Below are positions 24,643 to 37,056 of a stretch of 57,336 bases of DNA, in pieces (positions within the stretch are counted from its first letter, which is position 1; each line of letters starts with the position of its first letter). Source of the DNA: Sedimentisphaerales bacterium (lineage in GTDB: Bacteria > Planctomycetota > Phycisphaerae > Sedimentisphaerales > Anaerohalosphaeraceae); contig JAFGPC010000017.1 of the NCBI GenBank assembly GCA_016926155.1, positions 1 to 57,336 of the forward strand. Direction: 5' to 3'. The translations under genes were made by a program, and so were the position numbers. The notes under the pieces were generated by a model that saw only the letters and a program-made list of their open reading frames with translations, was not told the DNA's origin and made no database searches.

Positions 24643-24957
24643 TTGGCTGAACGAATGCATGAATTGAAGGTGCAGATTAAAAATGCCGACGGGCTGCACA
24701 TGCGTCCAGCAATGCAATTTGTTGACTTGGCCAGCACCTTTGAGTCGGATATTCATGTCAGCAATGGAGAAACTACCGTGGACGCAAAAAGTATCATGCA
24801 AATGACAATGCTGGCCGCTACCTGCGGTTCTACTTTGACCATACGGGCAGAAGGACAGGATGCCAAACAGGCTGTCGAAGCGCTGCAAACCCTGGTAGAA
24901 CGCGATTTGTTCGGAAAAGCAGCCAAGGCGACAGGTGATATAAGAGAGGATGGATAG
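24643..24957 (+). CDS. ptsH: HPr phosphocarrier protein
   Basis: A 104-residue HPr, slightly longer than usual (85-90) at both ends. The phospho-histidine is His19 in ADGLHMRPAMQFV. The regulatory serine equivalent to Ser46 is Ser50 in DAKSIMQMTMLAA, the site phosphorylated by HPr kinase in organisms that have it. The frame begins with TTG at 24643, with GGGAG about 10 nt upstream; the ATG at 24655 is a possible alternative start. The gene overlaps the ptsI frame by 8 bp. The retained serine suggests an HprK exists elsewhere, because none is here. Confidence 0.92.
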   Translation: MAERMHELKVQIKNADGLHMRPAMQFVDLASTFESDIHVSNGETTVDAKSIMQMTMLAATCGSTLTIRAEGQDAKQAVEALQTLVERDLFGKAAKATGDIREDG

Positions 24958-26701
24958 AACGTCCATGGAGATACGCAAGGGAATCGCCGTATCACCGGGA
25001 ATTGCTTTTGCACGAGCGATAGTGATTGACAGCAAAGACTATCGCATCCCACGACGTGCCATTTTACCATCCCAGGTAGCCGATGAGGTACATCGTGTAG
25101 ATGAAGCGTTCAGCGGAGCAGTACATCAGTTATCTGTACTCGAAAGTCGTCAGAGTGTAGATGAAAGCTCTCTCAAGGATATTTTCGCGGTTCATCGACG
25201 TTTTTTACAAGATGAGAGCTTCCGTAAACGTATCATCGACGTTATTCAACAGGAAATGGTTACAGCCGAATTCGCCGTCTCGACAATCCTTCATGAGATT
25301 GCAGTTCATCTTTCTTCTGTAGAAGATCTTTATATTAGCGAACGAGCCGCCGACATTTACGACATCCAGAAACGTCTGCTTACCGAACTCCTAGGAAATG
25401 TAACGGAAAGTGTGGACCATCTCAGCGAGGAAGTCGTCGTCATTGCTCATAACCTGACTCCAACCCAGACAGCCGGTTTTAACAAAACGTATGTCAGGGG
25501 ATTTGCAACAGAAGCGGGAGGACGAACAAGCCATACGGCCATCCTAGCCCGTTCCCTAGGAATACCGGCTGTGGTAGCGATGGAGGATATTACCGCTCAG
25601 GTAACCGCTTCCAGCAAAGTGATTATTGACGGTAATCGCGGTGTGGTTGTGATTGATCCGGATGAGGCAACCATTGAAGAATATCGCGAATATGCCGAGA
25701 GTCTACACAAATTCGAAACCCGGCTGGGTTCTCTGCGCGACAAACCGGCTGAAACCCGGGACGGAGTGCGTATCACGTTATTGGGCAATATAGAATTTCC
25801 AGATGAAGCGGTTCTTGTCAAAAACAAAGGCGGTGACGGAATTGGATTGTATCGTACGGAATTTCTTTATCTCTACAGCGGCTCAGAACCTACCGAACAG
25901 GATCATTACGAAGCGTACGCTGAAACCGTTCGGGCCTTTCAGGGAAAACCTGTGGTAATTCGGACAATGGATCTGGGCGCCGATAAGTTGCCGACCACGC
26001 AGGGTCATCCCCCGGAAGCCAATCCGGTGTTGGGTTTGCGCTCGATTCGATATTGCCTTGAACATCTGTCCCTGTTTAAAACCCAACTGCGAGCGATTCT
26101 TCGGGCGTCCGTGCTGGGTGACGTCCGAATTATGTTTCCCCTAATTACCAATTTGCAGGAGTTGCGCCAAGCACGAATGATTCTTCGGGATGTTATGGAA
26201 GACCTGGACGAGTATGCGGCACCATATAATCCCATGATCCAGGTCGGGATCATGATAGAAACACCCAGCGCTGCACTGACATCGTCTTTACTGGCGATAG
26301 ACAGTGATTTTTTCAGTATCGGAACCAATGATCTAATCCAGTATACGCTCGCAGTGGATCGGGGCAATGAACATGTCTCCTCCTTGTACGCGTTTGCCGA
26401 TCCGGCCATACTCAGCTTGATCCGCAGTGTGATCCATGACGCCAATAAAGCCAAAATTGGTTTGAGTGTCTGTGGTGAGATCGCCTCAGAACCTGAGTAT
26501 ATTATGTTATTGCTAGGTATGGGAATTCGTACGCTGTCGCTGGCGCCGCCTATGATCCCGGAAGTCAAGCAGATTATCCGTTCAGTAAGCACCAAAGAGT
26601 GCAATCATCTGGCTCGCAAGGTAGCGACAATGGATGCTCCCAGACAAATAAAAAATTATGTGCGCGACGCCGCGATGAAAATCATGCCGGAAGCATTTTA
26701 A
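24950..26701 (+). CDS. ptsI: Phosphoenolpyruvate-protein phosphotransferase (Enzyme I)
   Basis: A 583-residue Enzyme I of normal length, which moves phosphate from PEP to HPr. The N-terminal HPr-binding helices are followed by the swivelling domain with its active His195 in GGRTSHTAILARS, then the TIM barrel with GDGIGLYRTEFLYL, RTMDLGADK, GIMIETPSAA, FFSIGTNDLIQYTLAVDR and the catalytic Cys in SVCGEIAS. The ATG at 24950 overlaps the ptsH end by 8 bp; a second ATG at 24965 begins the usual family start (MEIRKGIAVSPGIA) and may be the real one. The DUF2344 gene follows immediately. Confidence 0.95.
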   Translation: MDRTSMEIRKGIAVSPGIAFARAIVIDSKDYRIPRRAILPSQVADEVHRVDEAFSGAVHQLSVLESRQSVDESSLKDIFAVHRRFLQDESFRKRIIDVIQQEMVTAEFAVSTILHEIAVHLSSVEDLYISERAADIYDIQKRLLTELLGNVTESVDHLSEEVVVIAHNLTPTQTAGFNKTYVRGFATEAGGRTSHTAILARSLGIPAVVAMEDITAQVTASSKVIIDGNRGVVVIDPDEATIEEYREYAESLHKFETRLGSLRDKPAETRDGVRITLLGNIEFPDEAVLVKNKGGDGIGLYRTEFLYLYSGSEPTEQDHYEAYAETVRAFQGKPVVIRTMDLGADKLPTTQGHPPEANPVLGLRSIRYCLEHLSLFKTQLRAILRASVLGDVRIMFPLITNLQELRQARMILRDVMEDLDEYAAPYNPMIQVGIMIETPSAALTSSLLAIDSDFFSIGTNDLIQYTLAVDRGNEHVSSLYAFADPAILSLIRSVIHDANKAKIGLSVCGEIASEPEYIMLLLGMGIRTLSLAPPMIPEVKQIIRSVSTKECNHLARKVATMDAPRQIKNYVRDAAMKIMPEAF

Positions 26702-26702
26702 C

Positions 26703-27386
26703 ATGAATAATACATGTTTCAATCCAAACCAGAGAACGAACACACTAGTGGTTCGTTTTCGCATCAGCGGTCGGCTAGTATGGCTAAGTCATCTGGAAAC
26801 TGCTTCCATGTTACAGCGGGTACTGATCCGAGCTTGCGTACCGATCTGTTATAGCCAGGGTTTTAATCCTCATCCCCGAATGAGTCTGCCCTTGCCTCGT
26901 TCTGTAGGTCTGGCATCCGACGATGAACTGGTGAGCGTCCAGATATCCGATCCGCAAACTCGCTCCGCCAATTCACTTTTAAATATTCTTCGTATCCAGA
27001 CTCCCATGGATTGCGAATTGTATCATGCCGAATTGTTTCCGGATCGGACTGCCTTCGAAGCCGTAGAAGCCGATTATGTCATTTCTCTGGATAGTCGGAA
27101 GGCATTTCATCGGACCCAATGCAGTATTCAAAAGCTGGATAAAAAATTACAGGATAACGAACCGATTTTCATTATGCGACAAAGAAAAAACGGGCAGCAG
27201 CAATCTCGAAACATGGCTCGATTTCTGAAATCGGTTACATGGCGAAATGAACAGGTGGTCGCCCAGTGTCGAATCAGCCCGGAAGGCACTATTCGTCTGG
27301 ATGAATTGTTGAACCTCTTGAAATTGACCCCAACCGACCTGGCCTGCCCTATTCTTCGTAAACGTGTAGAATGGATTCGTAAATAA
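26703..27386 (+). CDS. DUF2344 (TIGR03936) radical-SAM-linked protein
   Basis: A 227-residue protein with VVRFRISGRLVWLSHLETASML near the N-terminus and CYSQGFNPHPRMSLPLPRSVGLASDDE, the defining motifs of DUF2344. In many bacteria this domain is fused to, or next to, a B12-binding radical SAM protein and lies before the RNase E/G gene. Here the RNase gene follows by 23 bp but the radical SAM partner is absent. The function is unproven, with a link to RNA or ribosome modification suggested by neighbours. The start almost abuts the ptsI stop. Confidence 0.88.
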   Translation: MNNTCFNPNQRTNTLVVRFRISGRLVWLSHLETASMLQRVLIRACVPICYSQGFNPHPRMSLPLPRSVGLASDDELVSVQISDPQTRSANSLLNILRIQTPMDCELYHAELFPDRTAFEAVEADYVISLDSRKAFHRTQCSIQKLDKKLQDNEPIFIMRQRKNGQQQSRNMARFLKSVTWRNEQVVAQCRISPEGTIRLDELLNLLKLTPTDLACPILRKRVEWIRK

Positions 27387-27409
27387 ATTTGAAATTGTTA
27401 CGGTAAAAT

Positions 27410-28933
27410 ATGTCACAAGAAATGTTGGTCAATGTGTCCGAGGATCAGGAATGCCGCGTTGCTGTGGTCGAAAATGGTTCTCTGGAAGAATTGTATATTG
27501 AACGTGCCAGCTTGGTAAGCCATGTCGGCAATATTTATAAAGGGAAGGTTGTCAATATCGAGCCGGGAATACAAGCGGCATTCGTCGATTTCGGATTGAA
27601 TAAAAACGGCTTTTTACATATCAGCGACCTGCATCCGAGGTATTTTCGCGGAAAAAAGGAAACCGCCGAGAAAATTGGACGACGAAAAAGTGTCAACCAG
27701 CGTCCGCAAATCCAAAAGGTTTTATCCAAAGGCCAGGACATCATCGTTCAGGTAACAAAAGAGGGTATCAATACCAAGGGCCCGACCCTGACAACCTATA
27801 TTTCTCTCCCGGGCAAGTATCTGGTACTCATGCCCTGGATGGCCAAGATGGGCGTTTCTCAGAAAATTGAGGATGAGGAAGAACGAAAACGTCTGCGCGA
27901 GATGATGGATGATTTCGATGTACCGGAAAATTGCGGTCTGATTATTCGTACAGCGGCACAAGGCGCAACAAAACGAGAATTGCAAAACGATGCGGCATAT
28001 CTGAAACGGCTATGGAGCGCCATCCGTAAACGGCTGGACAAGACGGCCGCGCCGTGTGAAATCTACCAGGAGTCCGACCTGGTGATCCGTACCGTGCGGG
28101 ATGTGTTCAGCACAAAGATTCGTAAGATCGTTTGTGACAGCGAGCAGGTGACCAAACGTATTCGTGATTTTCTGGGTATTGTACAGCCAAGACTTAAACG
28201 TCGAGCGACTCACTATGACGGCAAAACGCCACTGTTTCATAAATACAAAATTGAAGAGGAAATCGAAAAAATCCAAGGCAGTCACGTCGCCCTGAAAAGC
28301 GGAGGTTCCCTGGTCATTGAGCCAACCGAAGCGCTGGTGGCGATCGATGTCAATAGTGGACGATATCGTAAGCAGGACAATGCCGAACAGACCGCCTTGA
28401 AAATTAACCTCGAAGCCGCCAAAGAGATCGTTCGGCAACTCAAGCTTCGCGATCTTGGGGGATTGATTATTTGCGATTTTATCGATATGCGTGAGGTAAA
28501 AAATCGACGCGAAGTGGAAAAAGTCTTTCGAGATGAACTACGCAAGGATCGGGCCCGATCGAGAGCTTTACGTATGAGCGCCTTTGGCCTGATCGAACTG
28601 ACTCGTCAGCGTGTCGGACCCAGTTTGCAATCCAGCACATATTTGGAATGTCCGCACTGCGGAGGCTCCGGTGTAATTAAGAGCATGGAAAGCCAATCTA
28701 TTGAGATCATACGCCTGCTCAATGTTGCAGCGGCTCGAAACGATGTGAAACAGGTGGAAATTACAGTGGCCCCCCCCGTGGCGGATTTTCTGCAGAATAA
28801 ACGACGTGCTTTATTAGCTTCCTTGGAAGTGCAATCGGACAAGAGCATTGAAATTCGGGCGGACCAGAATAAAATTGCCCATAACTGGGAGCTGGTTTGC
28901 TACAACAAGCGAGGCAGCCTGATCAAACTGTGA
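27410..28933 (+). CDS. rng: Ribonuclease E/G family endoribonuclease
   Basis: A 507-residue RNase G-length enzyme, without the long C-terminal scaffold of E. coli RNase E. The N-terminal S1 domain (about 35-130, GNIYKGKVVNIEPGIQAAFVDFG) is followed by the catalytic region with AIDVNSGRY and IICDFIDMR, which give the two magnesium-binding aspartates. The Zn-link CPHCGGSG lies near residue 415. It cleaves single-stranded RNA with a 5' monophosphate in rRNA processing and mRNA decay. Its place after a DUF2344 gene is a common arrangement, and a promoter for the next operon starts about 20 bp beyond its stop. Confidence 0.94.
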   Translation: MSQEMLVNVSEDQECRVAVVENGSLEELYIERASLVSHVGNIYKGKVVNIEPGIQAAFVDFGLNKNGFLHISDLHPRYFRGKKETAEKIGRRKSVNQRPQIQKVLSKGQDIIVQVTKEGINTKGPTLTTYISLPGKYLVLMPWMAKMGVSQKIEDEEERKRLREMMDDFDVPENCGLIIRTAAQGATKRELQNDAAYLKRLWSAIRKRLDKTAAPCEIYQESDLVIRTVRDVFSTKIRKIVCDSEQVTKRIRDFLGIVQPRLKRRATHYDGKTPLFHKYKIEEEIEKIQGSHVALKSGGSLVIEPTEALVAIDVNSGRYRKQDNAEQTALKINLEAAKEIVRQLKLRDLGGLIICDFIDMREVKNRREVEKVFRDELRKDRARSRALRMSAFGLIELTRQRVGPSLQSSTYLECPHCGGSGVIKSMESQSIEIIRLLNVAAARNDVKQVEITVAPPVADFLQNKRRALLASLEVQSDKSIEIRADQNKIAHNWELVCYNKRGSLIKL

Positions 28934-28953
28934 GGTTTCAAACCGTTTGCCGG

Positions 28954-28982
28954 TTGACGGAAGCCGGAGAATTCTGCATACT
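28954..28982 (+). promoter_or_regulatory. Sigma-70-like promoter for the kdsD-kdsC-lpt genes
   Basis: TTGACG (28954-28959), a 17-bp spacer and CATACT (28977-28982) match the consensus -35 and -10 at 5/6 and 4/6 positions. It lies between the rng stop and the kdsD start, about 80 bp before the ATG at 29062, a suitable place to start an independent kds transcript. Confidence 0.5.
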
Positions 28983-29061
28983 ACATCTGAATGTGCTCCT
29001 TAGAATAGGATGAGATAGTTTGCGCATTACAGCAAAATTCGAACGAAAGAAAGTTTTTAAC

Positions 29062-30057
29062 ATGAGTAATCAAACCAGACAGAACTTTGATCTGGATTTT
29101 GCAAGACAGGTGATTGTCAGTGAAGCTGAAGCAATTCATGCTTTGAGTGACCGCTTAGATGAGAATTTCTCTTCTGCGGTCGCAATGCTTTATGAAAATA
29201 CCGGCTCGACCATTGTGACCGGCATTGGCAAGGCGGGGATTATTGGGGCCAAGATCAGCGGAACGCTGGCTTCAACAGGAACACCAAGCCATTTTCTACA
29301 TCCTGCGGAAGCTGTTCACGGTGACTTGGGACGAATCCAGGAAAATGACATTCTATTGGCATTGAGCCATAGCGGTGAAAGCGATGAGATTATCCGCCTC
29401 ATCGGTCCCATAAAGCAGCGACAAATCAAGCTGATCGCCATGACCGGCAATCCCCAATCCCGCCTGGCCAGATACAGTGATGTGGTGTTGGACATCGGCA
29501 GGGTGGTGGAAGCCTGCCCTCTTGGGATTGCCCCGAGTGTATCTACAACCTGTATGCTGGCACTGGGTGACGCCCTGGCTTTGACAGTAATGAAAGCCCG
29601 GAAATTCGGACCTGAGGATTATGCCCGATTTCATCCGGGGGGGGCACTTGGAGCCAGCCTGATCACCGTGGGCCAATCGATGATGTTCCAGTCGGGGGAA
29701 CTGTTGCCATTAGCCACAACAAAGGATACGGTACAGCAAATGCTAGACAAGACCGAAAATCTTAAACGCCGCGGCGCCGTTATGATCGTGGATGAGCAGG
29801 GAAAACTGTCTGGAATTATTACCGATGCGGATCTGCGTCGGGCCCTCAATCGGTATGGACCGCAAGTCATGGAAGTGAAAACCGTTCAAATCATGACCGC
29901 CCAATGTAAACGCGTCACAGAAGAAACACTGGCGGCTGAAGCGATGGCAATTTTCCATAAATATCGAATCGACGAACTTCCTGTAGTAGACGGCAAGGAC
30001 CGACCGGTAGGCATGATTGACGTACAAGACATCGTGGCAATCAAAATTGTGGGATAA
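29062..30057 (+). CDS. kdsD: Arabinose-5-phosphate isomerase (KdsD/KpsF family)
   Basis: A 331-residue enzyme that converts ribulose-5-phosphate to arabinose-5-phosphate, the first step to Kdo. The SIS domain (about 35-180) has TIVTGIGKAGIIGAKISGTL, the FLHPAEAVHGDLG loop, and ALSHSGESDEI; two CBS domains follow (about 205-330). Length and order match the full-size family. The ATG at 29062 (MSNQT) is chosen; a TTG at 29020 in frame is less typical. It is followed by kdsC after 3 bp, so the two are surely co-transcribed. Sugar-phosphate specificity is inferred from family and neighbour. Confidence 0.93.
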   Translation: MSNQTRQNFDLDFARQVIVSEAEAIHALSDRLDENFSSAVAMLYENTGSTIVTGIGKAGIIGAKISGTLASTGTPSHFLHPAEAVHGDLGRIQENDILLALSHSGESDEIIRLIGPIKQRQIKLIAMTGNPQSRLARYSDVVLDIGRVVEACPLGIAPSVSTTCMLALGDALALTVMKARKFGPEDYARFHPGGALGASLITVGQSMMFQSGELLPLATTKDTVQQMLDKTENLKRRGAVMIVDEQGKLSGIITDADLRRALNRYGPQVMEVKTVQIMTAQCKRVTEETLAAEAMAIFHKYRIDELPVVDGKDRPVGMIDVQDIVAIKIVG

Positions 30058-30060
30058 GTC

Positions 30061-30591
30061 ATGCACAGAAACCTTGAATCCATAGATTTTTTTCAAATCA
30101 GGCTTTTAATTCTTGATTTGGATGGCGTTCTGACTGATGGGAGCATTTTTCTCCATGCCGATGGTTCCGAAAGCAAGCGGTTTCATGTACAGGATGGACA
30201 CGGGATCAAGATGTGGCAAAGAGCGGGTCTGGAAGTGGCTATTATCAGTGGTCGGGAGGCGAAAGTAACCGATCTTCGAGCGGAGCAATTGGGAATTCAA
30301 CATGTTTTGCAGGGACGCAAGAAGAAACTCCCGACCTTCGAGTCACTTTTGTCCGAGTTGTGCCTTCGCCAGGAGCAAGTGGCTTATATCGGTGACGATT
30401 TGCTGGATATTCCTCTGATACGGCGCGCTGGTTTCGGCGTAGCGGTAGCCAACGCCGTGAATGAAGTGAAAGATGCAGCTGACTATGTAACACAATTAAA
30501 TGGGGGCCGGGGGGCGGTCCGTGAAGTGATCGAATACATTCTAAAACGGAGCGATCGATGGCAGGAACTGATGGATCCATACCTTGTTTAA
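30061..30591 (+). CDS. kdsC: KdsC-type 3-deoxy-manno-octulosonate-8-phosphatase
   Basis: A 176-residue HAD phosphatase (subclass IIIA, no cap domain). The nucleophile motif is LDLDGVLTDG with Asp19 and Asp21; motif II is IISGRE, the lysine follows in QGRKKK, and motif III is YIGDDLLDIPLI. GVAVANA and the GGRGAVREVIEYIL tail are typical of KdsC, which removes phosphate from Kdo-8-phosphate. It lies between kdsD and the LptC/LptA-like gene, the same order as E. coli kdsD-kdsC-lptC. Confidence 0.93.
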   Translation: MHRNLESIDFFQIRLLILDLDGVLTDGSIFLHADGSESKRFHVQDGHGIKMWQRAGLEVAIISGREAKVTDLRAEQLGIQHVLQGRKKKLPTFESLLSELCLRQEQVAYIGDDLLDIPLIRRAGFGVAVANAVNEVKDAADYVTQLNGGRGAVREVIEYILKRSDRWQELMDPYLV

Positions 30592-30607: not shown

Positions 30608-33463
30608 ATGACAGCGTTACGAAGGATTGCAATTGGCGTGACGGCCCTGATCGCCGTCCTATTGTTGTTTGCTGCCTATAATTACTGGTCGCAGACTCCA
30701 TCCATTGAGCATCCGAAAACGGATTCAGGACAAACGATTGCCCCTCCGGAAATGGGCCGGACGCGACCGGAAATGGGGCAAGTTCGCCCCGGCCCGACGG
30801 AAATGGCCAAGTTTACAGTTCGAGATCCACTCACTAAGAAACTCAAACGGATGTTCGGATTTTATCGCCTGCTGAATCCGAATGAGGATACCATGCGCTG
30901 GCGTCTTTCCGAGCCGTACATGAATATTTATGAGGATAACTTCTTCTGTCGGATCACATCGGATAAAGGAACTGTGTTGGTGGAAAAGGTGGAGGGCAAC
31001 TATACGCCTCGAGATGCAGAGTTATCTGAAAACGTGCGGATTTATCTCAAATCGCTCAACCCTGAAGATCCGGTTGAATGTGTGATCTATATGGATGATT
31101 TGAGCTATAGCTCGGAACGCTCCCTGTTTTCAACGGCCGGTCCCGTTCGTTTGATCAGCAGCGAGGCGGAACTGGCCGGCACGGGAATGGAGCTGATTTA
31201 CAATGCAGGTAAAGCAAGAATTGAATTGTTACGAATAGCCGACTTGGATCATATGCGTGTACGAGATCTGGTGGAGCAACAACAGACAAAGCAGGCAAAA
31301 AGCCTGCCGGGAGAATACAAAACAGAACAACCTTCTATCGAGAAATCATCGCCAGAATCAAGTACTGTGGCGGATGTCGGAAAAACAACAACAGCTTCCG
31401 GCGATGTACAAGCCACTCAGGAAGAAACACCGGAATACTATTTCTGCAGGTTGAGGAAAAATGTGGTAATCTGGTATGGACGCAAGCTAAAACTGAGCGG
31501 AGGCGATCAGGTCAATGTAACCAATATTCTCTGGTCCAGTCGAGCGACAAAAACGACATCAGAACCTGCTGTTCAAAAAACGCCTTCCTCCAAAGAGGGG
31601 ACGGATATAAGTCAAATACAAGCCGACACAACGATTCCCGGTTCGACAGTGGCTTCCGCCATCCCGGAAGATGCCGGTGACACATTTACTCCACCGCAAG
31701 TGCAGGATAATGACGAAACCGATGTGGTAATTCAATGTGACGGCGAGGTGCTTATTCGCCCAATGGAATTTTTTAATGAAGTCATTACTTCGAAAAGCAA
31801 GCAGCTCATTCAAATGGCGGGTATGCCGCTTCATATCGAGCAAGCCAATCAAATCCATACGCAACAGATGAATACGCTGGCGCAATGTGGTCAACTGCAG
31901 TATGAGGTCGATACACAGAATTTAATGATTAGCCAAGGAGGCTGGCCGGAAGAAACTGTACTGAATTTCGGCCAGGACAAGGGACAATTGTTTACACCCG
32001 GGCTAATTCATTATGACCGTCTTGGCTGCCGGGCCAATATAACCGGGCCGGGCCGATTGGTTCTTCACAATACCGATGAGACAACGAATGAAACAAATCG
32101 CTCCACAGAACTTGTTTTTAATGGAATGATGCACTTGTTGTTTGCCGAGATAAATCCCAAAGAACCTACACAGGAACTGATTCTCAAGTCAGCTAATCTT
32201 ACGGGGGGTATCAAGGCCAAAATAGCCTCCGATAGTGAATCTACCCTTCGTGCAGACGCAGCCCGGTTTCATTTTGATCGGACCAATTCGCCTCTGGATG
32301 CCGATTTGCAGGGAACCGTGCAATTTGCCTCTTCACAAGGCATGTTGCTTTCCCAGAAGGCCCGGCTCTTTTTTGTGACGGATGAACAAGGACAATCCCG
32401 GATCAATAAAGTGCAGACTGAAGGCACTGCCACGCTCGTATCTTCTTCGAATGGCTCCGTGACTGCCGCCGATAAACCCGCCCGTTTTATCGGCAGAAAT
32501 ATGCTGTACGATGTATCCACCGGCAATGCCGTAGCACAGGGACCGATTGAATTTACCTTTTATGTGGATCCTCCCGACCCGAACCGCCCCGGTGCTGAGC
32601 CGATCCCTGCAGTGATTACTGCAACCCGGAAAACAGAATATATCGCTGCGACAAATCAGATTACATTCTTTGGAAATGTTGTGGGTGTGCATGAGATGAT
32701 TATACCACAATATACACAAAAAAGTGTTTTCGAGGGGGATCAACTTATCGTACAGTTATTTGAGAATGAGACGATCCAATCACAGATGCAGATCAAGCAG
32801 GTTACTTTACAGGGAGGCAATGTTAACATCGATTCCGTCCGAAGCGAGGAAGGCAAAACTATCAGCCATGTTCGGTTACTCTGTGAACACTTGAATTATT
32901 TTGCCGAAGGAGAAATCATTGAAGCAATCGGACCGGGTAAAATTGAGCTGGACAACGGCAACGTGCCTCCCCTGGCATCACAGGACCGCCGAAAAGGCGT
33001 TGATTTGCGTGGGCCGTGCTACGGCGTCATGCAGGGTTACCAATCTCTGCGATGGTATATGAGCGCCAATCGAATCGTCGCCGATGGTGGCGGCGATACA
33101 GTGCATGTGGCCTATCAACCTATTGAAAACGGACAATTCGGAAAACGGCTGTGGGCGGCAGCACCGTATATTGAAGCTGCCTATGCGGAAACTCCGGAAG
33201 GCCGTAATGAATTGAGCTTCCTTGATGCAAGAGGGGACGTATTTTATTATGAAGAAGACGGGAACATTTTTATGGGTACCGAATCGCTCCATTACGATAC
33301 CGTCACGTCTTTGATGACGGTCTCCTGTCGACCAGAAGATCCGTGCCTGGTAAATGGAGCCATGGTTTCGGGAATCGAATATGACCTGACAACCGGACGA
33401 ATTCAATCCGAAATGGAAGGCAGCATCGGGATTATCCCATTCGCTTCCGAACCCGACCAATAG
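30608..33463 (+). CDS. Giant LptC/LptA-like (OstA-fold) protein
   Basis: A 951-residue protein, about five times the usual length of LptC or LptA. One N-terminal membrane anchor (about residues 5-25) is followed by a Pro-rich linker and an LptC-like stretch (about 75-220: MRWRLSEPYMNIYEDN, then YTPRDAELSENVRIYLK, ISSEAELAGTGMELIYN). Two polar Thr/Ser/Gln/Glu linkers (about 230-275 and 310-370) separate it from several more beta-rich OstA-like segments, such as FCRLRKNVVIWYGRKLKLSG, ATNQITFFGNVVGV, LCEHLNYFAEGEIIEAIG and a C-terminal LDARGDVFYYEEDGNIFMG. I start at the ATG at 30608; a TTG at 30584 would overlap kdsC. It follows kdsC by 16 bp, where lptC lies in E. coli. It probably reaches into the periplasm and handles lipid. 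Confidence 0.72.
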   Translation: MTALRRIAIGVTALIAVLLLFAAYNYWSQTPSIEHPKTDSGQTIAPPEMGRTRPEMGQVRPGPTEMAKFTVRDPLTKKLKRMFGFYRLLNPNEDTMRWRLSEPYMNIYEDNFFCRITSDKGTVLVEKVEGNYTPRDAELSENVRIYLKSLNPEDPVECVIYMDDLSYSSERSLFSTAGPVRLISSEAELAGTGMELIYNAGKARIELLRIADLDHMRVRDLVEQQQTKQAKSLPGEYKTEQPSIEKSSPESSTVADVGKTTTASGDVQATQEETPEYYFCRLRKNVVIWYGRKLKLSGGDQVNVTNILWSSRATKTTSEPAVQKTPSSKEGTDISQIQADTTIPGSTVASAIPEDAGDTFTPPQVQDNDETDVVIQCDGEVLIRPMEFFNEVITSKSKQLIQMAGMPLHIEQANQIHTQQMNTLAQCGQLQYEVDTQNLMISQGGWPEETVLNFGQDKGQLFTPGLIHYDRLGCRANITGPGRLVLHNTDETTNETNRSTELVFNGMMHLLFAEINPKEPTQELILKSANLTGGIKAKIASDSESTLRADAARFHFDRTNSPLDADLQGTVQFASSQGMLLSQKARLFFVTDEQGQSRINKVQTEGTATLVSSSNGSVTAADKPARFIGRNMLYDVSTGNAVAQGPIEFTFYVDPPDPNRPGAEPIPAVITATRKTEYIAATNQITFFGNVVGVHEMIIPQYTQKSVFEGDQLIVQLFENETIQSQMQIKQVTLQGGNVNIDSVRSEEGKTISHVRLLCEHLNYFAEGEIIEAIGPGKIELDNGNVPPLASQDRRKGVDLRGPCYGVMQGYQSLRWYMSANRIVADGGGDTVHVAYQPIENGQFGKRLWAAAPYIEAAYAETPEGRNELSFLDARGDVFYYEEDGNIFMGTESLHYDTVTSLMTVSCRPEDPCLVNGAMVSGIEYDLTTGRIQSEMEGSIGIIPFASEPDQ

Positions 33464-33516: not shown

Positions 33517-35331
33517 ATGAAACACGGAATGGGAAAGGCAAACTGGATCGGGAGTCTGGTTCTGTTGGGTGCAAGCCTGGCGGTTGCCAACGGTCCATAT
33601 GAGGCCAAATGGGAATCGCTGGATAAACGTCCTACCCCACCATGGTTTCAAGATGCAAAATTCGGCATCTTTATTCACTGGGGCGTCTATTCAGTGCCTG
33701 CCTGGGGAGAAAAGACCAAATATGCCGAATGGTATTGGAACAGCCTTAAGAAAGAAGACTCCCCCACCGAACAATTTCACAATCGTGTTTATGGGTCGGA
33801 TTTTCAGTACTCCCAGTTCGCCGACCTTTTTAAACCGCTCCTGTTCGATCCGGATCAGTGGGCCGACCTGTTTGTCCGTAGTGGGGCCCGATATATTGTA
33901 TTAACCAGTAAACACCATGATGGCTATTGTCTGTGGCCCAGCAAAGAAGCCAATAAGACCTGGGGCCGGCCCTGGAATGCCGTGGATACCGCACCTGGTC
34001 GGGATCTGCTGGGAGAACTGACCGCTGCAGTCAACAAACGACCGGAATTGAAGATGGGTTTCTACTATTCCCTCTACGAATGGTACAATCCTCTGTACAA
34101 TCAAGATGTAAACAAATATGTCGATCAGCATATGCTCCCACAAATGGTAGATTTAATTAACACATATAAACCCCATGTTTTATGGACAGATGGGGAATGG
34201 GACCATCCCAGCAGTACTTGGGAGAGCGAGCAATTCCTGGCTTGGCTTTACAACGAATCTCCCGTCAAAGAATTCGTGGCCGTCAACGACCGCTGGGGAA
34301 ACGAATGCCGTCATGTCCATGGTGGGTATTACACCACAGAATACGGTAGTGGTGTCGAAGGGGGACATCCGTGGGAAGAGTGTCGCGGAATGGGACATTC
34401 TTTCGGGTATAATCGAAACGAAACTACCGACGAGTATCGCTCTACAAAATCGATTATTCATACATTGGTTGAACTGGTCAGCAAGGGTGGATGTCTGCTT
34501 CTGGATATCGGCCCTACCGGTGACGGTCGTATTCCAGTGATTATGCAGCAGCGACTCATCGATATCGGCGACTGGCTCGCTGTCAACGGCCAGGCTATTT
34601 ATGGAACTCGACCATGGAAGATTAACGGCATCGAAAAAACGTTTGTCGTGGAACGTATCGATCCCAGGATTGATTTTGACTGGCATCGCGGTTCTCCGGA
34701 TGAAAAAATCTCCGGGGATTTTTTCACGACAGAATGGACAGGCTGGATACAGCCCGCTTATTCGGAAGAATATACCTTTGAACTGACTGCCGATACCCGG
34801 GGGGGACTCTGGATTGATAATAAACTTATCATCGATGATCTGCAGGAATATCGCAAATGGGGCGGCACAGGAACCGCCAAAGTCATACTGGAAGCCGGAA
34901 AGAAGATACCGATTCGGGTACGACTTGTGGAAGAGGACCGTAATGCTCACATTCAATTGTGTTGGTCAAGTCCCAGTCAAAGTAAGGAAATCGTGCCAAC
35001 CCGTTGCCTCTTTACAGATACTAATGTTACTGAAGGTATTGGCCTGAAAGCCGTCTATAGCAGCAAAGGAAATGTCGCCTGTTACACCTGTAAAGGGGAT
35101 ATCGTTTACGCCGTTAGTCTGGGCTGGCCGGAAAACGATTGCTTTGTCGTTGACGTCGTAGCGCCATCCGCTCCCACAGCGACAACCAAAGTGGAATTGC
35201 TCGGTACGGAAGGAACGTTGCCTTGGAGCTATCGAGACGGAAAAGTCTGTATCGATGTCTCGGATGTGGCTATTGATGATCTGGCCTGTGAGCATGCCTT
35301 CGTCTTCAAGTTCATCGGCTTTGAGCAATAA
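33517..35331 (+). CDS. GH29 alpha-L-fucosidase with inserted PA14 domain
   Basis: A 604-residue exported enzyme (signal peptide about 1-25). The GH29 barrel runs from about 30 to 365: PWFQDAKFGIFIHWGVYSVPAW, YIVLTSKHHDGYCLWPS, and VLWTDGEWD with Asp225 as the likely nucleophile. A conserved C-R-G-M-G-HSFGYNR segment follows. Between the barrel and the C-terminal beta-sandwich lies a PA14-like domain (about 385-505: GDFFTTEWTGWIQPAYSEEY, DTRGGLWIDNKLIID), a carbohydrate-binding fold not usual in simple fucosidases. AGGAGAGG precedes the ATG. It probably releases alpha-fucose outside the cytoplasm. A paralogue lies 33 bp downstream. Confidence 0.92.
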   Translation: MKHGMGKANWIGSLVLLGASLAVANGPYEAKWESLDKRPTPPWFQDAKFGIFIHWGVYSVPAWGEKTKYAEWYWNSLKKEDSPTEQFHNRVYGSDFQYSQFADLFKPLLFDPDQWADLFVRSGARYIVLTSKHHDGYCLWPSKEANKTWGRPWNAVDTAPGRDLLGELTAAVNKRPELKMGFYYSLYEWYNPLYNQDVNKYVDQHMLPQMVDLINTYKPHVLWTDGEWDHPSSTWESEQFLAWLYNESPVKEFVAVNDRWGNECRHVHGGYYTTEYGSGVEGGHPWEECRGMGHSFGYNRNETTDEYRSTKSIIHTLVELVSKGGCLLLDIGPTGDGRIPVIMQQRLIDIGDWLAVNGQAIYGTRPWKINGIEKTFVVERIDPRIDFDWHRGSPDEKISGDFFTTEWTGWIQPAYSEEYTFELTADTRGGLWIDNKLIIDDLQEYRKWGGTGTAKVILEAGKKIPIRVRLVEEDRNAHIQLCWSSPSQSKEIVPTRCLFTDTNVTEGIGLKAVYSSKGNVACYTCKGDIVYAVSLGWPENDCFVVDVVAPSAPTATTKVELLGTEGTLPWSYRDGKVCIDVSDVAIDDLACEHAFVFKFIGFEQ

Positions 35332-35364: not shown

Positions 35365-37056
35365 ATGAAAAAAACTGACTTTTTCATCCTTTATCTGGCA
35401 GCATTTGTTACTATTGGATTCGTTCTTTTCCACGGTTGCGCGAGTGAAGAGCAAAAAGTCAAAGAGGCCGCCACAAAAGTCAAACCCGTTGAGGCGCAAT
35501 TTGATCCAGTTGCAGGAACAGCCAAGGCAGTGGAGGATGTGACTACGGAAACTGTCAAAACCGTTGAACAGATGGCTTCGGAAGTTGCCAAAACAGTTGG
35601 AGGAGCAGCCTCAGAAATCGCCAGGACTGTTGAAGGGACTATACAACAAAAGTACGAGGTAAAATGGGATTCGCTTGATAAACGTCCCACACCAAAATGG
35701 TTCGATGACGCCAAATTCGGAATTTTCATCCATTGGGGAGTTTACTCGGTGCCTGCATGGGGACCTAAAGGTCAATATGCCGAGTGGTACTGGCGACGAA
35801 CATTTGATGATAAGCAAAATCTGCAAGACAATGAATGGAGTACGTTCCACAAAGAATACTATGGTTCTGATTTTGCCTATAAAGACTTTGCCAAGATGTT
35901 TACGTGTGAGATGTACGATCCCGACCAATGGGCCGATATTTTTTATCGCAGTGGGGCAAAATATATTGTGTTAACCAGCAAGCATCATGAGGGATTTTGC
36001 TTGTGGCCCAATGAACAGGCCAGCAAGACATGGGGGCGTCCCTGGAACGCAGTCGAAACAGGCCCCAAACGCGATATCCTTGGCGACCTGACAGTCGCCG
36101 TTCGCAAACGTGGGATCAGAATGGGTTATTATTTCTCGCTGTACGAATGGTTCAATCCCCTATGGCTTGACCAGAGCAAACGACAGCAGTATGTCAATGA
36201 GCACATGCTGCCCCAGGTCAAGGATCTTGTTACGCGTTACAATCCGGATATTTTATGGAGCGACGGGGAATGGGATATGACTTCGGACAAATGGCGAAGC
36301 GAAGAATTACTCGCCTGGCTCTTTAATGAAAGTGTTGTGAAAGACACCATTGCCATCAACGACCGCTGGGGCAAAGAATGCCGTCACAACCACGGTGGAT
36401 ATTACACAACCGAATACGGCGCCGGCTTGGCCGGAGCCACCCATCCCTGGGAAGAATGTCGGGGAATGGGGCATTCGTTCGGATATAACCGCAATGAGGG
36501 AATTGACGATTATAAATCCGCACGCGAGATGATTCTGATCCTGATTGATCTGACCAGCCGCGGCGGATGTCTTCTACTCGATATTGGTCCTACTGCCGAT
36601 GGCCGCATTCCGGTCATCATGCAGCAGCGATTGATTGAAATTGGAGACTGGTTGAAGATCAACGGCGAGGCCATTTATGCCACTCGAACATGGAAAAACA
36701 CCTGTCAGTGGAGCGACGGCGAAAAGCCCGAACAGGAGTACAAGGAATACAAAGCCAAATACAATGTTCTGGATATAATTGGGAGTGGCCCGAAAGAGGG
36801 CAAAGCCGTCAAAGAAGCTTTCTTCACAATGAAAGAAAATGCAATATATGCTATCCTGCCGGCCTGGCCGGGGACAGAACTCATACTTAAGGATGTTAAT
36901 CCTGCGAAAGACGCCATGGTGACAATGCTTGGATACAATGGTGCGTTACCCTGGAAACGAAGTTTGGAAGGAATGACTATCGATCTATCCGAAGTGAAAG
37001 TCCGCGACCTGCCCTGCAAATACGCATGGACGATCAAAATCCAGGAAACACAATAG
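35365..37056 (+). CDS. GH29 alpha-L-fucosidase lipoprotein
   Basis: A 563-residue GH29 enzyme close to its upstream neighbour. The N-terminus has a hydrophobic signal and lipobox FHGC (Cys27), so it is probably lipid-anchored. Residues about 35-95 form an amphipathic, Thr/Val/Glu/Lys-rich helical spacer with repeats of the ETVKTVEQMASEVAKTV type, before the barrel (KWFDDAKFGIFIHWGVYSVPAW). The nucleophile is Asp300 in ILWSDGEWD, and the HSFGYNR motif is kept. It lacks the PA14 insertion of its paralogue. GAGGAG lies 8 nt before the ATG. Tandem copies differ in anchoring and accessory domain, which suggests different places of action. Confidence 0.92.
   Translation: MKKTDFFILYLAAFVTIGFVLFHGCASEEQKVKEAATKVKPVEAQFDPVAGTAKAVEDVTTETVKTVEQMASEVAKTVGGAASEIARTVEGTIQQKYEVKWDSLDKRPTPKWFDDAKFGIFIHWGVYSVPAWGPKGQYAEWYWRRTFDDKQNLQDNEWSTFHKEYYGSDFAYKDFAKMFTCEMYDPDQWADIFYRSGAKYIVLTSKHHEGFCLWPNEQASKTWGRPWNAVETGPKRDILGDLTVAVRKRGIRMGYYFSLYEWFNPLWLDQSKRQQYVNEHMLPQVKDLVTRYNPDILWSDGEWDMTSDKWRSEELLAWLFNESVVKDTIAINDRWGKECRHNHGGYYTTEYGAGLAGATHPWEECRGMGHSFGYNRNEGIDDYKSAREMILILIDLTSRGGCLLLDIGPTADGRIPVIMQQRLIEIGDWLKINGEAIYATRTWKNTCQWSDGEKPEQEYKEYKAKYNVLDIIGSGPKEGKAVKEAFFTMKENAIYAILPAWPGTELILKDVNPAKDAMVTMLGYNGALPWKRSLEGMTIDLSEVKVRDLPCKYAWTIKIQETQ

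Follow-up and report, generated by a model that had tools for sequence, protein, structure and literature searches.

Known Lpt systems and comparable lipid bridges

In E. coli, LptC and LptA are each shorter than 200 residues, and copies of the same fold stack across a periplasm of 21 nm. LptC of the E. coli and Vibrio type (PF06835, TIGR04409) consists of one N-terminal transmembrane helix and one beta-jellyroll, and its gene adjoins kdsC. LptA (PF03968, TIGR03002; LptH in Pseudomonas) is encoded next, after kdsC-lptC. The number of LptA copies that bridge the E. coli periplasm is without experimental determination (PMC5575297, Fig. 1 legend), and in other bacteria the contacts between LptC and LptA are antibiotic targets, as for thanatin (PMC7237710).

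In Planctomycetes, LptD and BamA have been shown in a study that does not treat LptA and LptC (Speth et al. 2012, PMC3422733), and the Lpt system of the group has been described as "largely reduced" (PMC8871954). For Methylacidiphilum (Verrucomicrobia), the genes listed include LptA and LptC as two distinct neighbors (PMC10542722). The long MlaD of Veillonella illustrates the principle of a single chain that replaces the shuttle or bridge parts of the periplasm and runs from the inner to the outer membrane (PMC10665443). An LptC-LptA fusion, or a planctomycete LptC, has no published description that we could find in the open-access literature, in line with the initial annotation of the locus presented here, which had likewise found no description of a one-piece bridge.

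A long LptC-like protein encoded directly after kdsC

The analyzed stretch of DNA (57,336 nucleotides from a Sedimentisphaerales bacterium, contig JAFGPC010000017.1; hereafter the window) carries an ORF at 30608–33463 (+) that translates into 951 residues plus a stop. Profiles, relatives, alignment, a structural model and fold matches all bear on its reading as a giant LptC-(LptA)n fusion protein. It follows kdsD, an arabinose-5-phosphate isomerase gene (29020–30057, +; SIS and two CBS domains, probable true start ATG 29062), and kdsC, which encodes a Kdo-8-phosphate phosphatase of the HAD family (30061–30591, +; profile match and DLDGVLTDG motif). The kdsC stop is at 30591 and the ATG of the long ORF lies 16 bp downstream. 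The lptC-lptA slot after kdsD-kdsC, including the position that lptA has in E. coli, is thus held by this single gene, which we count in favor of the fusion reading. Of 18 loci checked across the phylum, 12 have kdsC directly upstream of the frame that carries the LptC domain.

Several features of the surroundings were also recorded. The order PTS enzyme I, DUF2344-type protein, RNase E/G, kdsD, kdsC, fusion gene (window 24950–30591) is conserved in a genome of another family of the order (G003, L109). Directly 3' of the gene are two tandem GH29-type alpha-L-fucosidases (33517–35331 and 35365–37056), the first with a PA14 domain. In genomes of the planctomycete families f39 and f57 (L091, L092, L093, L094, and L110), the fusion is followed by a gene that, in the cases with a start that was read, carries the AHRG..PENT motif characteristic of glycerophosphodiester phosphodiesterases, and then by a uroporphyrinogen methyltransferase-like gene.

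The protein begins with a membrane anchor at residues ~7–25 (30626–30682, +). The best 19-residue hydropathy is 2.26, at residue 7, compared with values of at most 0.84 everywhere past residue 40, and the model has a helix at 3–27. An LptC-type jellyroll occupies residues ~59–220 (30782–31267, +) and is followed by a polar disordered insert at 222–275 (31271–31432, +; composition, and pLDDT < 50 at 222–274), a conserved strand pair at 277–308 with the invariant Cys280 (31436–31531, +; alignment, model and composition), and a second polar disordered insert at 309–372 (31532–31723, +; model and composition), after which come conserved strands at 373–385 with the invariant Cys377. In the model, the disordered inserts lie between the LptC module and the remaining chain. 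The rest contains an LptA-type unit at ~422–577 (31871–32338, +), in a region that shorter orthologues lack, a unit of LptA or LptD-N type at ~666–838 (32603–33121, +), and a C-terminal LptA-type unit at ~796–945 (32993–33442, +), whose match overlaps the preceding one.

The initial annotation, made from the sequence alone, had described a 951-residue product beside kdsC with a single N-terminal anchor, an LptC-like beta region, and several OstA-like beta segments split by polar linkers. The first three points agree with the translation, the hydropathy profile and the fold matches given below. The last holds in part: an LptA/LptD-N fold is found at three places, but the sharp polar linkers, one ahead of the LptC module (~28–64) and two soon after it (222–275 and 309–372), all lie within the first 425 residues, whereas residues 424–935 are almost unbroken beta structure in the model, such that the last ~510 residues make one continuous beta body.

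Conserved cysteines are found at residues 280, 377, 427, 759, 804, and 913. Among these, Cys280 and Cys377 are invariant across the 16 sequences of the alignment, and Cys913 is shared by every one of the 15 that extend to its position. Cys280 and Cys377 flank the insert at 309–372, and a disulfide that closes this insert is possible.

We also looked for traces of duplication within the chain. Profile self-comparison yields one internal signal, between residues ~466–593 and ~761–900 (hhalign E = 8e-5, probability 61%), which speaks for the fusion reading, and detects no resemblance of the LptC module to other parts of the chain. A search for DNA-level repeats within the gene returned only one chance-like pair of 23 nt. 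Because the single internal signal is weak and the LptC module is unlike the rest, a recent tandem duplication is unsupported.

Predicted structure and fold matches

An AlphaFold2 model was built from nine sequences, and fold matches were obtained by structural alignment. The whole model has a mean pLDDT of 67 and a pTM of 0.53, with low confidence in the N-terminal half and values of ~85–95 over most of the C-terminal half. Modeled alone, residues 366–951 reach a pLDDT of 80 and a pTM of 0.76, which suggests that they form one body.

Residues 59–220 match LptC with Z scores of 11.1–12.4 among 3my2, 6mjp_C, and 6mit_C (6mjp_C: Z 11.8, 3.5 Å/136; 3my2: Z 11.1, 3.0 Å over 123/126). The three downstream units superpose on LptA at 2.4–3.5 Å. 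Specifically, residues 422–577 align with 2r1a_C at 2.4 Å over 122/135 (Z 11.3), and with LptH (4uu4) at 2.3 Å (Z 10.6); residues 666–838 align with 2r1a_C at 2.7 Å over 129/135 (Z 10.8), and residues 796–945 with 2r19_A at 3.5 Å over 125/135 (Z 12.2). For residues 651–904, the best match is the N-terminal periplasmic domain of LptD (4q35_A, Z 13.5). The matches along the chain point to a predicted arrangement of one LptC unit with room for about three LptA-sized units.

Foldseek matches to RhsA, SF3b, IFT-A, DDB1 and similar proteins were set aside as long beta-repeat matches with probability < 0.4, and PDB sequence searches, whether by the protein itself or by the profile of its family, gave nothing meaningful.

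The family within Sedimentisphaerales

Relatives are present in 132 of 148 Sedimentisphaerales genomes, including 61 of 66 near-complete ones; the order was assigned by named relatives, which place the family in Phycisphaerae/Sedimentisphaerales, Planctomycetota. Full-length copies have ~770–1,044 residues, and 15 aligned relatives share 27–38% identity across the whole length. With this distribution and conservation, the ORF is therefore not a chance frame. Length varies mostly in a middle block, at about residues 390–620; four of the shorter orthologues in the alignment do not have this block, and some longer ones have extra repeats.

Scanned singly, the window protein matches TIGR04409 at residues 99–205 (E = 3.6e-5, 23.4 bits vs a cut-off of 38) and Pfam LptC (PF06835) at E = 0.012, below cut-off. 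No LptA/LptD-N profile matches it in the Pfam scan. At E up to 1, it has no match to the LptD family, including the barrel PF04453, and none to AsmA/TamB in the Pfam and NCBIfam sequence profiles. Orthologue profiles are more informative: LptC is recovered in 15 of 16 (best E = 2e-11) and LptA/LptD-N in 3 of 16 (best E = 4e-10), with the LptC match N-terminal and the LptA/LptD-N match in the middle of the chain. LptC exceeds its curated cut-off in 5 of 10 family members scanned singly, and two orthologues (L035, 40.4 bits; L024, 22.2 bits) exceed the LptA/LptD-N cut-off of 20.4. In automatically annotated genomes, proteins of this kind may already be named "LptC."

The rest of the Lpt machinery

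The initial annotation had proposed that a separate LptA would not be needed, and the genome, checked for the other components, agrees with it. LptB (312 bits), LptF (533 aa) and LptG (360 aa; both over cut-off), and LpxC (276 bits) are all encoded, together with a 1010-aa LptD candidate whose LptD and LptD_N matches are weak, with the Pfam families below cut-off. A separate lptA is not recognizable in this genome: OstA_2 has no match, LptD_N matches only the LptD candidate, and so does TIGR03002 (E = 0.87). The lptB gene adjoins def and fmt, not lptA. Since the assembly has 222 contigs and is 95.9% complete, the missing lptA is less certain; moreover, an LptA profile that fails to detect even the units fused in the window protein could also overlook a diverged LptA.

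LptF and LptG were also considered as one 908-codon frame, and this fusion was rejected because there are two ORFs with a stop between them. The LptF_LptG match in LptF (G000:C2, L009:12338-13939) is split into residues 1–226 and ~246–352, with extra residues between, and this enlarged periplasmic region may correspond to the enlarged LptC partner.

In 75 genomes of the order, LptA-type matches fall in frames of about 800–1060 codons, with one exception. The exception (G114:C207:12193-12438, L070) is a frame of 135 codons with a weak, sub-cut-off match, perhaps a fragment or an LptA standing alone.

Fusion architecture across Planctomycetota

Our survey of fusions covered Planctomycetota only. 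In other members of the phylum, LptC and LptD_N matches occur above cut-off in one frame. For example, a 664-aa relative has LptC at 69 bits and LptD_N at 72 bits in 3 stretches, a 635-aa relative has LptC at 60 bits and LptD_N at 93 bits in 4 stretches, and both profiles exceed cut-off in relatives of 1112 and 931 aa. Profile-profile comparison of the family in the order with the shorter fusions (probability 96%, E = 1.4e-9, 514 columns) indicates from sequence that they are homologous along their length.

At E = 0.01, the LptC profile matches in 35 of 148 genomes of the phylum scan, and our statement on the phylum is therefore limited to detected cases. The LptC domain sits in a frame of 567–1751 codons in 33 of these 35, lengths that may be affected by over-extension at the 5' end in GC-rich genomes, and the exceptions have 178 and 297 codons. 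Because the LptA profile is insensitive in the order of the window, we chose f39 lineages, where the profiles are strong, as a control. There, the fusion frame of ~650–670 codons holds LptC plus 2–4 LptA-type matches, and each LptD_N match, complete genomes included, falls either in an LptC fusion frame or in a ~930–970-codon frame that is LptD by size.

Some lineages are split. One (G170; L100, L125) has an LptC of 174 aa (178 codons) and a separate LptA-type frame of 167 aa elsewhere; another (G152, L122) has, just downstream, a separate frame of 371 codons (369 aa) in which two LptA-type stretches are found; and a third (G179; L123, L124) has a kdsC-adjacent protein of 343 aa that includes a single LptA-type unit, in addition to a separate LptA of 197 aa. 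On these sequence comparisons, fusion and separate LptA tend to be mutually exclusive, which is what the fusion hypothesis predicts. The split lineages, with a short LptC and a separate LptA-type protein, can help to date the fusion and can serve as controls in experiments.

A probable covalent bridge and its alternatives

We consider it likely that LptC and several LptA-type beta-jellyroll units are combined here in one natural fusion protein; because the units are covalently joined, a separate LptA would be unneeded and the gene would set their number. This reading, which the initial annotation had put forward as several units joined in one chain, is supported by the fold matches, the orthologue profiles, the lack of a recognizable lptA and the architecture in the phylum. 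The fusion differs from LptC, which is one jellyroll, in carrying several further jellyrolls in the same chain, and from LptA in that its units are covalently linked and tethered to the membrane, with no cleavable signal and no free protomers. Unlike LptD, it has no outer-membrane barrel and ends with an LptA-like jellyroll. It shares its principle with the long MlaD of Veillonella, which by contrast combines an MCE domain with an outer-membrane barrel and has another fold and another lipid.

By analogy with LptC, the single N-terminal helix would sit in the inner membrane, inside the LptB2FG transporter. The jellyroll units would form one continuous groove with LPS as cargo, and the chain would dock directly to the LptD candidate, spanning the whole periplasm. 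By unit count, we estimate a span of the order of the E. coli periplasm. A "fixed-length bridge" would be fixed within a species, as the length differs across species.

The protein could instead be a lengthened LptC that reaches only partway, with one or several diverged, separate LptA proteins completing the bridge to LptD. The split lineages lend this some weight, since they retain a separate LptA, in one case beside a kdsC-adjacent frame with one LptA-type unit (343 aa + 197 aa), as do the weakness of the LptA profile in this order and the 135-codon frame of G114. However, in genomes with a working profile, LptA-type matches are confined to the fusion and to LptD-sized frames, and within the order G114 stands apart from the long frames of the other genomes; we regard a partial bridge as rather unlikely.

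The remaining alternatives concern function. Planctomycete lipid A is poorly characterized, and a cargo other than LPS, such as a different glycolipid, is conceivable. This has been proposed for Treponema pallidum, where an Lpt apparatus exists without LPS (PMC8407342). Such a cargo is improbable here, given that lpxC is present and that the gene directly follows the Kdo genes. A surface or structural beta-repeat protein, whose Lpt likeness would reflect a common beta arrangement and no role in lipid transport, has in its favor the OspA single-layer beta proteins that also align (Z 7–8), but the LptC, LptA, and LptD matches are clearly higher (Z 10–13.8) and both the orthologue sequence profiles, which agree independently, and the kds operon context make it highly improbable.

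Under the fusion reading, the periplasmic bridge for LPS export in planctomycetes appears to be one long anchored protein, composed of LptC and several LptA-type modules, in place of separate stacking proteins. We give an even chance to the broader proposal that such a one-piece covalent bridge replaced the self-assembling LptA chain in Planctomycetota, with a lineage-dependent number of units that serves as a genetic ruler fitted to the width of the periplasm, and with length changes in the order arising mainly through gain and loss in the middle beta-repeat block. A natural fusion fixes the number of LptA units per species, which allows this number to be set against measured widths of the periplasm. 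An lptA hidden inside lptC may also be the reason that the Lpt systems of planctomycetes have been scored as largely reduced, and the fusion would leave no LptC-LptA protein-protein interface for disruption of the thanatin type.
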